Shown piece by piece: positions 38,939 to 41,305 of a stretch of DNA of 64,000 nucleotides. The stretch is from contig JASEEU010000006.1 in the NCBI GenBank assembly GCA_030019445.1, positions 62,001-126,000 of the forward strand, in the 5' to 3' direction. Under the pieces are notes generated by a model. That model made no database searches. It was not told the origin of the DNA and saw only the letters and a program-made list of their open reading frames with translations. Within the stretch, counting starts at the first letter, position 1. The number at the start of each line of letters is the position of its first letter. The stretch is from Anaerosomatales bacterium. GTDB lineage: Bacteria; Actinomycetota; Coriobacteriia; Anaerosomatales; Anaerosomataceae. The position numbers and the translations under genes were made by a program.

Positions 38939-39676
38939 TCACTCGGCGCGGCCGAATCCCACGGAGATGGCGCCCTCGGGGCACGTGTCCACGCACGTCT
39001 CGCACATGAAGCACTCGGTGGTGCGCATCGAGCCGCGCTGCACCATCTCGGTCACCGGGAGCTGCATCGGGCAGGCACGCTCGCACCGGTTACACGCCCG
39101 GCACGCCGATGCGTCCGCTCGCAGCACAAGGCGCGGGATGCGCGCCGCGTGCCCGATCTTCTCGGCCACGATGCCCCACACGCCGAACGGGCAGAGATAG
39201 CGGCAGAAGCCGCGCCTGCCGAGCGCGGCGGGCGCAAGCGTGATCCCCACGAGCATGAAGTAGGTGATGAGGTTGCCGGCCTCGGTGACCGACACGCCGG
39301 ACTCGGTGAGGTACAGCGGGTCGATGCTCGACCAGCCGCCTGCCGAGACGACCGCCGCGCCGACCCCCGCCACCCAGGCCGCCCAGAGGGCGTACTTCAC
39401 GAGCGGCAGGTAGCGGACGCGCTTGAGCGGGCGCGTCCCCACCGACTCCCAGAGCTGCTGGAGCCCGTTGAACGGGCACGCCCAACCGCAGAACGACCTG
39501 CCGAGGAGGAGCGCGGTGACGAAGATGTCGCCCCACACGAGCAGCGACGCGGTCGCGACGCCCTCGGCCGAGCCCGACATCATCAGGTACGGCGAGTAGT
39601 AGTTGAGCGTGATAGGCAGCGCGAGGAAGAAGAGCGCGAGCATAGTGCGTCGAAGGACCTGTCTGCGGGCGTGCAT
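38939..39676 (-). CDS. NapH/CcoG-like membrane ferredoxin
   Basis: A 245-residue membrane protein with four to five helices and two cytoplasmic CP motifs, 'GRSFCGWACPF' and 'RRGFCRYLCPFG', as in NapH and related 4Fe-4S quinol-linked proteins. The C-terminal ferredoxin domain has two 4Fe-4S sites, 'CRACNRCERACP' and 'CFMCETCVDTCPEG'. It probably passes electrons between the membrane quinone pool and a soluble partner. No nap or nos genes are near. The SD 'GGGAGG' precedes the ATG. Confidence 0.88.
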   Translation of the reverse strand: MHARRQVLRRTMLALFFLALPITLNYYSPYLMMSGSAEGVATASLLVWGDIFVTALLLGRSFCGWACPFNGLQQLWESVGTRPLKRVRYLPLVKYALWAAWVAGVGAAVVSAGGWSSIDPLYLTESGVSVTEAGNLITYFMLVGITLAPAALGRRGFCRYLCPFGVWGIVAEKIGHAARIPRLVLRADASACRACNRCERACPMQLPVTEMVQRGSMRTTECFMCETCVDTCPEGAISVGFGRAE

Positions 39677-40327: not shown

Positions 40328-40897
40328 ATGCCGGCCACCAAAGAGCAGATCGCGGACGCCTTCGAGCGGCACGTGCAGCGCTTCGGCTACGGCAAAGCGA
40401 GCGTCGAGGACGTCGCCGCTGAGCTCGGCATCTCCAAGCGCACCATCTACCAGCACTTCTCGAGCAAGCGCGCGTTGTATGCCTACATCGTCGACCGCGT
40501 GGCCGAGAAGGAACGGGCGCGCCTGGAGGCGCTGATCGCCGATGAGCCCACGTGGCGCGCGAAGACCGAGCGGTTCCTGCGCGAGGTGCTCGGCGGTATG
40601 CGTGTGCACATCCAGGAGACGTCGAAGGCCGACTGGATGGCCGAGTTCGAGCTGGCGCTCGATGCTATGACCGAGGCGTACGGCACGATCGGCACCGAGC
40701 TCGTGCGTCGTGGCCACGCCGCGGGCGAGTTCACGTTCGCCGACGCGCGTCTTGCGAACGCCTTCATCGGCGCCATCGCGACGCGCTACGGCGTGATCGT
40801 ACGGGAGGAGCGCGACTACGACGCCGACGAGGCGGTCGTAGCCGCGATCATGCGGATGCTCGGTCGCCCTGACGCGCCGGGCGAGAAGGAGGAGTGA
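40328..40897 (+). CDS. TetR-family regulator upstream of the UGA membrane proteins
   Basis: A 189-residue TetR regulator. The DNA-binding domain reads 'YGKASVEDVAAELGISKRT' then 'IYQHFSSKRALYAYIVDRV' (about residues 21-58). The ATG at 40328 follows 'GGGAGGAGG'. Its stop is 5 bases before the first UGA-containing membrane gene, whose SD lies in the last TetR codons, so the three genes form one operon. This suggests the small membrane proteins respond to, or handle, the TetR ligand. Confidence 0.9.
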   Translation: MPATKEQIADAFERHVQRFGYGKASVEDVAAELGISKRTIYQHFSSKRALYAYIVDRVAEKERARLEALIADEPTWRAKTERFLREVLGGMRVHIQETSKADWMAEFELALDAMTEAYGTIGTELVRRGHAAGEFTFADARLANAFIGAIATRYGVIVREERDYDADEAVVAAIMRMLGRPDAPGEKEE

Positions 40898-40902
40898 TCT
40901 CA

Positions 40903-41088
40903 GTGTGGTGGTGGATCGGAGCGGTCGCGGCGCTGCTCGTATCGCTGGTTTGAATCGCGTACATCTCGGCGGACGGGGTCCGTCGCAAGGCGTCGTTCAT
41001 CGCGCCGGCGCTGTGGGCAGGGTACGCGTTCCACGCCGCGTTCGGCGTGCTGGGACTGTGGCTGCTGATGCGCGCCGCGAGCGCGTAG
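40903..41088 (+). CDS. Candidate selenoprotein, 61-residue two-helix membrane protein (copy 1)
   Basis: Read from GTG 40903, with 'AAGGAGG' 10 bases upstream, through an in-frame UGA at 40951-40953 (residue 17) to TAG. Helix one contains the UGA: 'WWWIGAVAALLVSLVU' then 'IAYISADG'. A basic loop ('VRRK') leads to helix two, 'GYAFHAAFGVLGLWLLM'. The second copy downstream has the same V-UGA-I-x-Y context and matches helix two at FHA, GL and neighbouring positions, so sequence after the UGA is conserved between copies, which argues for translation. An 8-bp hairpin starts 13 bases after the UGA. The family is unknown to me; Sec is inferred. Confidence 0.68.
40967..40985 (+). promoter_or_regulatory. 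Candidate bacterial SECIS element, copy 1
   Basis: An 8-bp stem (40967-40974 with 40978-40985, one G-U pair) closes a GGG loop. It starts 13 bases after the UGA, the same distance as in copy 2. Confidence 0.62.
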
Positions 41089-41101
41089 GAGGGATAGTGA
41101 G

Positions 41102-41305
41102 ATGCGAGTCTTTCTCAGGGTGCTCGGCGTGACGCTCGTGGCGCTGGGCGCGGTTTGAATCGTGTACGTGACGGTGGCGGTCGCCACCGGAGCCGAGGGC
41201 TTCACGACGATGACGGGACTCATCCCGGCGTTCGTGTTCCACGCGGTCGTCTCGATCGCCGGCTTGCAGGCGTTGAGCGCGGCGCGCCGTCCTGTGGTAT
41301 CCTAG
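41102..41305 (+). CDS. Candidate selenoprotein, 67-residue two-helix membrane protein (copy 2)
   Basis: Read from ATG 41102, with 'TAGGAGG' 9 bases upstream, through an in-frame UGA at 41156-41158 (residue 19) to TAG. Helix one is '[16 protein letters not shown]' then 'IVYVTVAV'; helix two is '[17 protein letters not shown]'. Aligned to copy 1, V-UGA-I-[AV]-Y and FHA-[AV]-[FV]-[GS]-[VI]-x-GL are shared, with 26 or 27 residues between the UGA and the Phe of FHA. A perfect hairpin with GGTC loop starts 13 bases after the UGA. typA begins 30 bases after the stop. Confidence 0.68.
41172..41189 (+). promoter_or_regulatory. Candidate bacterial SECIS element, copy 2
   Basis: CGGTGGCG (41172-41179) and CGCCACCG (41182-41189) are perfect complements. 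With a normal loop this gives a 7-bp stem and a GGTC loop, the same core as the GGUCU loop of the E. coli formate dehydrogenase SECIS. It starts 13 bases after the UGA. Confidence 0.65.

Follow-up and report, generated by a model that had tools for sequence, protein, structure and literature searches.

An adjacent pair of small membrane proteins with in-frame UGA codons, a very probable selenoprotein operon of Actinomycetota and Chloroflexota

The gene pair and its closest described relatives

Bacterial selenoprotein genes possess an in-frame UGA and a hairpin downstream of it, the bSECIS, which has been modeled with a loop of 3–9 nt, a stem of 4–16 bp and a spacing of 16–37 nt from the UGA (PMC13188914), together with a G within the first two positions of the loop, usually as G[G/U], and an MFE ≤ −7.5 kcal/mol (PMC13188914 Fig. 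2). Numerous prokaryotic selenoproteins in the published list are related to thiol oxidoreductases or have redox motifs such as UxxC and CxxU (PMC13188914). The same compilation includes a putative mercuric transport selenoprotein, a MerT-like protein with a C/SxxU motif and a Pfam family of its own (PF02411; PMC13188914 Table 1), and lists the recently named TsoA, TsoB, TsoC, TsoX and TsoY (Haft and Tolstoy 2025), which are encoded by neighboring selenoprotein genes. Among the paired SMR proteins, obligate antiparallel heterodimers are recognized by adjacent paralogs with opposite Arg/Lys bias (PMC9574504).

The stretch of DNA analyzed here (the window) comprises 64,000 nucleotides of an Anaerosomatales genome and contains two short frames on the + strand directly after a TetR gene, each with a single in-frame TGA, after which it is open to a TAG codon (Table 1). 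Direct reading confirmed the original prediction that both ORFs have a strong Shine-Dalgarno sequence and an in-frame UGA, at codons 17 and 19, within a shared context (gtTTGAatcG in ORF A and ORF B alike). The hairpin that had been placed 13 nt past the UGA does start at +14 in both genes. The start codon of ORF A is GTG in this genome and ATG in the other 14 genomes that have the pair. The two ORFs were proposed to be paralogous, and hhalign aligned them with a probability of 96.6 and an E value of 5.6e-10 with the UGA and His columns in register. Both are absent from the mechanical ORF listing of the window, and they are invisible to standard annotation because they resemble ORFs of 16 and 18 codons. 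On the overall reading of the data, A and B very probably constitute a two-gene selenoprotein operon whose products would form an antiparallel membrane pair based on Sec and His.

Table 1. Positions of the features of the A/B locus and of related genes (window coordinates unless a contig record is given).
Feature	Position	Strand	Remarks
TetR-family regulator gene	40328..40897	+	Pfam TetR_N, 46 bits; accessory to the pair
Shine-Dalgarno of ORF A	40886..40892	+	AAGGAGG; direct reading; similar in homologs
ORF A	40903..41088	+	Predicted two-helix membrane selenoprotein, 61 residues; Sec17 and His44
ORF A start and stop	GTG 40903; TAG 41086-41088	+	
Candidate Sec codon UGA of ORF A	40951..40953	+	Codon 17; TGA in 14/14 Sec-type homologs, TGC in G081
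Putative SECIS hairpin of ORF A	40967..40985	+	Stem +14..+20 with +26..+32; apical loop +21..+25, CGGGG
Shine-Dalgarno of ORF B	41087..41093	+	AGGAGGG; direct reading
ORF B	41102..41305	+	Predicted two-helix membrane selenoprotein, 67 residues; Sec19 and His47; probable topology opposite to A
ORF B start and stop	ATG 41102; TAG 41303-41305	+	
Candidate Sec codon UGA of ORF B	41156..41158	+	Codon 19; TGA in 14/14 Sec-type homologs, TGC in G081
Putative SECIS hairpin of ORF B	41172..41189	+	Stem +14..+20 with +25..+31; apical loop +21..+24, GGUC
Cys-form pair of G081	L037:1306-1719		
Host selD	L078:7715-8755 (G000:C16)		Outside the window; TGA at L078:7769

The locus shares with the bSECIS selenoprotein genes the in-frame UGA, the hairpin with a G[G/U] loop at 16–37 nt, a Cys homolog and the presence of Sec machinery. 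However, the predicted products differ from the listed selenoproteins: they are tiny two-helix membrane proteins with the Sec positioned in the membrane, they have neither a thioredoxin fold nor a CxxU or UxxC motif, and they are adjacent paralogs that would both contain Sec. The adjacency of paralogous genes and the opposite positive-charge bias are features held in common with the paired SMR proteins. SMR subunits are ~100 residues in length with four helices and carry a characteristic glutamate, whereas proteins of the A/B family consist of 60–84 residues with two helices and have Sec and His in place of the glutamate; the best match to an SMR model attained 17 bits against a cut-off of 200 and is non-significant. 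The MerT-like protein also is a small membrane selenoprotein, but A and B have no PF02411 match and contain only one Sec, without a Cys partner at a distance of two or three residues. The Tso families resemble A and B in that they were found as neighboring selenoprotein genes, to the extent that the compilation describes them; compared through their NCBIfam models only, NF045695, NF045694, NF045708, NF045809 and NF047643, there was no match with A or B.

No Pfam model and no model in the whole of NCBIfam (June 2026 release) scored above its cut-off for either protein. The weak matches to SMR, succinate dehydrogenase cytochrome b and TMEM61 fell below the cut-offs, are typical of membrane-helix composition and were dismissed. 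Foldseek comparison of the model of A with the PDB and profile searches of PDB sequences produced nothing convincing, none of the 119 families and subfamilies in PMC13188914 Table 1 is such a protein, and a literature search located no description of such a pair. The expectation that no described family has this layout was borne out by these searches, and as judged from sequence A and B belong to no known selenoprotein family.

Conservation beyond the UGA codons and distribution

A search with ORF A of 298 genomes of the class detected four clear relatives with one internal TGA in each, and ORF B, also with a TGA, is located directly behind A in all four. Scanning of GTDB genomes with the A and B alignment provided one more record, L031 from Chloroflexota, with a TGA in both genes, and profile searches of the order, of one Chloroflexota class and of the whole Chloroflexota phylum revealed more pairs. 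Adjacent TGA/TGA pairs are present in 14 genomes from two phyla, Actinomycetota and Chloroflexota (the host G000 and G031, G133, G067, G149, G298, G337, G463, G849, G765, G924, G912, G773 and G787), a count that leaves out the remaining weak matches of the order, Chloroflexota class and phylum searches. Candidates L023, L024, L025, L026, L038, L046, L092 and L095 were rejected after reading as chance matches or antisense frames. A tblastn search of plasmids with A gave no match, and the viral_contigs scan contained no relative of the pair. The source genomes probably are mostly metagenome assemblies, with five of the records being MAGs; G912 (2.07 Mb) and G924 (2.09 Mb) are single contigs.

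The TGA is situated at the identical column in all 28 Sec-type ORFs of the 14 genomes. In a fifteenth genome, G081, which is the only Cys genome found, the Cys codon TGC is located exactly at this column in both genes (codon 17 in A and codon 19 in B). There is no TAA, TAG or non-Cys sense codon at the UGA column among the 30 homologous ORFs, and A adjoins B in 15/15 genomes. Homologs that align past the UGA, with either TGA (28 ORFs) or TGC (two ORFs) at the column, had been sought as support for Sec and thus do exist. When the 30 proteins are aligned jointly, Sec/Cys and His each occupy their column in 30/30. In G031 and G133, the two closest genomes, the region past the UGA had a dN/dS of 0.19 in A and 0.17 in B; more distant pairs are nearer saturation and the ratios are less clear. 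On these substitution patterns protein-level selection is considered to continue beyond the UGA. Purifying selection, the invariant His and homologs in two phyla uphold the earlier view that the frame after the UGA is conserved as protein, and purifying selection also speaks against pseudogenes. Certain of the ORFs, including both in G298, terminate in TGA, and therefore UGA is not reassigned throughout, which speaks against a global change of code.

The split between A and B precedes the divergence of the genomes, with a support of 0.999 for the A clade, and the two phyla are separated in the tree of the pair with a support of 0.91. As read from these phylogenies, A and B are ancient paralogs from a single duplication, and both appear to have retained Sec in parallel since before the spread into two phyla. 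The pair is sporadic, being present in 6/69 genomes of the order compared with selA in 54/69, a pattern of frequent loss or transfer. Two of the pairs display irregularities. Gene A of G463 includes, besides the Sec TGA, a TAG at codon 4 (L045:1510-1512) where relatives have TGG (Trp); the sequence fits a sequencing error, decay or readthrough alike. In G765, gene B is conserved apart from its expected start (L087 reverse complement, about 1495-1510), where ATG, GTG and TTG are all lacking, through either a mistaken base or the use of a rare start codon.

Hairpins, Sec machinery and decoding of the UGA codons

A hairpin follows every UGA (28/28) with the 5′ arm ending at +20 and the loop commencing at +21. 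Every one of them has G at base 22; base 23 is G in three A genes and U in all others. The geometry conforms to the bSECIS model in 28/28 genes with a constant spacing of 20 nt, and the energies of all B and most A hairpins lie within the limit of the model; a few A hairpins do not reach −7.5 kcal/mol in the short fold that was used. Short A stems of 4–5 contiguous bp are present in G298, G463, G337, G849, G765, G773 and G787. The hairpins were more stable than those of synonymous-codon shuffles (Stouffer z = −8.2, n = 16 genes), a value that overstates the independent evidence because the genes are related. When the exact geometry was defined as ≥5 bp closing at +20 with G at +22 and G or U at +23, it was detected after 0.9% of the window's TGA triplets compared with 12/14 A genes and 14/14 B genes.

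The stem of the B hairpin was examined further in nine ungapped sequences, in which 98.4% of cells are paired and 12 cells are changed on both sides. This level of pairing was reached by 0/500 shuffles, and slid versions were far lower. With the loop length left free for each sequence, 96/98 cells pair across the 14 genomes, and changed pair types occur at all seven positions. The sequence comparisons indicate that the B stem evolves by compensatory swaps. The stem of A is shorter in the Chloroflexota genes, the four inner pairs of the A stem are nearly invariant, and therefore the case for A is one of geometry more than of covariation. The Cys-form gene B of G081 retains a hairpin with GU at the corresponding position, perhaps as a remnant from a Sec ancestor. 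An Rfam cmscan of the locus returned chance matches only, and RF00031 (SECIS_1) is uninformative because it matched neither the genome nor any of the control genomes.

The genes selA, selB, selC and selD had been proposed as a check, and all four are present in the host genome: selD, selA, selB and tRNA-Sec lie in one cluster with scores of 608 bits for selA, 388 bits for selB and 73.9 bits for tRNA-Sec. The host selD, which was the positive-control UGA gene, itself carries an in-frame TGA (SGUAAK), and the hairpin after it has the loop CGGGU, like the loop of ORF A; its first residues are lost if a conventional start is used. TIGR01591 was discarded as a positive control as the single relative that the genome encodes is a molybdopterin enzyme lacking an in-frame UGA. 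The machinery check covered the host, G031, G067, G081, G133, G149, G298, G337, G463 and G787, and selA and/or selB were found in seven other TGA-pair genomes (G031, G067, G149, G298, G337, G463 and G787). Specifically, selB is above the cut-off in G149, G031, G298, G337 and G463, as well as in the Cys genome G081, and G067 has only a C-terminal piece near a contig end; selA was found in G067, G031, G149, G298 and also G081. In G787, a single contig of 1.77 Mb, selC-selD-selA-selB are arranged in a row. Neither selA nor a full selB was detected in G133, the assembly of which is 85% complete in 220 contigs. Because selA is widespread in the order, finding it is a requirement without discriminating power. 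The selCDAB genes occur in all analyzed Dehalogenimonas genomes (PMC13390414).

The hairpin and machinery data together with the sequence conservation bear on three ways in which the UGA codons could be decoded. If they were real stops, as the standard code would dictate in both frames, the products would be single-helix peptides of 16 and 18 residues, and short hydrophobic peptides are plausible products; conservation downstream then would derive from RNA structure, an overlapping gene or re-initiation. This explanation is extremely improbable in light of the frame past the UGA which is kept in 28 ORFs of two phyla with an invariant His and purifying selection, of G081 in which both genes are open via a Cys codon, and of the lack of a conserved start codon after the UGA. 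Leaky readthrough of UGA does occur in bacteria and is a precedent for insertion of another amino acid, by near-cognate Trp or Cys readthrough, without Sec machinery. However, the conserved SECIS-type hairpin with a GU loop and fixed spacing, the Sec machinery in all tested TGA-pair genomes but one, the replacement of UGA by Cys and never by Trp, and the use of TGA as a terminator in the same ORFs render this possibility very unlikely. It is almost certain, as judged from these sequence features, that the UGA codons are read as Sec via SelB and the hairpin to generate full-length proteins of 61 and 67 residues. In the mechanism of Sec insertion that is proposed, SelB held by the downstream bacterial SECIS would bring Sec-tRNA-Sec to the UGA of each gene, and translation would pass the UGA and reach the real stop so that two full-length proteins would be produced. 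Each product would consist of two membrane helices folded as a hairpin, the first bearing the Sec and the second the His.

Topology, gene neighborhood and possible functions

AlphaFold2 modeled both proteins as helical hairpins, with helices at residues 2–28 and 35–60 in A (pLDDT 93) and at residues 2–29 and 37–62 in B (pLDDT 81). These models and the invariance in 30/30 proteins agree with the placement of Sec in the first helix and of a conserved His in the second that was suggested originally. From the helix limits, Sec17 of A would lie opposite approximately residue 46, close to His44, and Sec19 of B would lie opposite residue 47, which is His47. Thus, in the models, Sec and His are predicted to be at equal depth in each protein. 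The Sec-type A proteins contain no second Cys. In G081, each Cys form has an extra Cys four or five residues from the Cys that replaces Sec (C13 beside C17 in A and C24 beside C19 in B).

Lys and Arg residues in the N-terminal end, loop and C-terminal end, summed over the 15 genomes, number 0/52/8 in A and 22/4/46 in B, and the positive-charge bias of A is opposite to that of B in every genome. On the basis of this bias, A has with high probability an N-out/C-out and B an N-in/C-in topology. As the predicted topologies are opposite, an antiparallel heterodimer is the most likely assembly, and A and B would probably form an obligate antiparallel heterodimer akin to the paired SMR proteins with two buried Sec-His dyads, that of A nearer to the cytoplasmic face and that of B nearer to the outer face. 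Separate homo-oligomers with unrelated roles that are merely cotranscribed are improbable: A and B adjoin in all 15 genomes, switched jointly to Cys in G081, arose from an ancient single duplication and differ in charge bias in every genome.

The original prediction placed the pair in one operon with the TetR gene. A TetR gene indeed is directly upstream here, as it is in 5/6 Actinomycetota loci (G000, G031, G133, G067 and G081), but it falls outside the conserved unit. It is missing in G149 and in every Chloroflexota locus read and so does not define the system; the conserved unit is the pair and not the TetR gene. Flanking genes are not conserved in Chloroflexota and offer no conserved neighbor as a guide to function, and metal-resistance genes were absent near the pair in the loci read. 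A gene for a NapH-like membrane 4Fe-4S protein is found near the pair on the opposite strand in the host (window 38939-39676, −) and in G149 (L084:12198-12935), through either chance or a functional link. In G337 only, a run of redox genes lies downstream on the same strand (L080:3993-8749), comprising two flavodoxin-like genes, an FMN reductase gene and an F420H2-dependent quinone-reductase type gene.

The chemistry performed by the pair is the most tentative element of the interpretation. A redox role is preferred because Sec is used mostly for redox chemistry: conceivably the proteins conduct selenol redox reactions within the membranes of anaerobes. The dyads, once oxidized by a small oxidant or electrophile or through formation of a diselenide with one another, would pass reducing equivalents from one face to the other or to a partner in the membrane. 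The main rival for function, nearly as likely as redox, is handling of soft metals or metalloids, in which the pair would be a transporter or sensor-effector for ions of the Hg, Cu, As or Se type bound by Sec and His, and the adjoining TetR protein in Actinomycetota would sense the load. Sec and His are a soft-metal ligand set, pairs with opposite topologies are typical of SMR transporters (PMC9574504), TetR genes precede most of the Actinomycetota pairs, and the listed selenoproteins include a mercuric transport protein of the Sec type (PMC13188914). Nevertheless, the Sec forms have no metal motif of the CxxC, CC or GMxCxxC type, metal-resistance neighbors are missing and Chloroflexota loci have no TetR gene, and on balance metal handling is rather unlikely. 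Whichever of redox and metal chemistry applies, there is a somewhat less than even chance that A and B represent a minimal selenium-based membrane machine in which duplicated Sec hairpins fixed in opposite orientations, with one dyad per face, move electrons or soft ions through or inside the membrane of anaerobes of the two phyla.

The Sec-containing A and B proteins would add two selenoprotein families. The predicted location of Sec within a membrane helix of proteins of 61 and 67 residues contrasts with the many selenoproteins of the thiol-oxidoreductase type and suggests membrane selenium chemistry of an unknown kind. The pair also hints at an undercount of tiny selenoproteins. Should the single-contig genomes from Chloroflexota derive from isolates, the pair would be open to test in culture. 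The minimal Sec-hairpin machine, if it proves true, would go beyond one more selenoprotein family and represent a new class of selenoenzyme or transporter embedded in the membrane.
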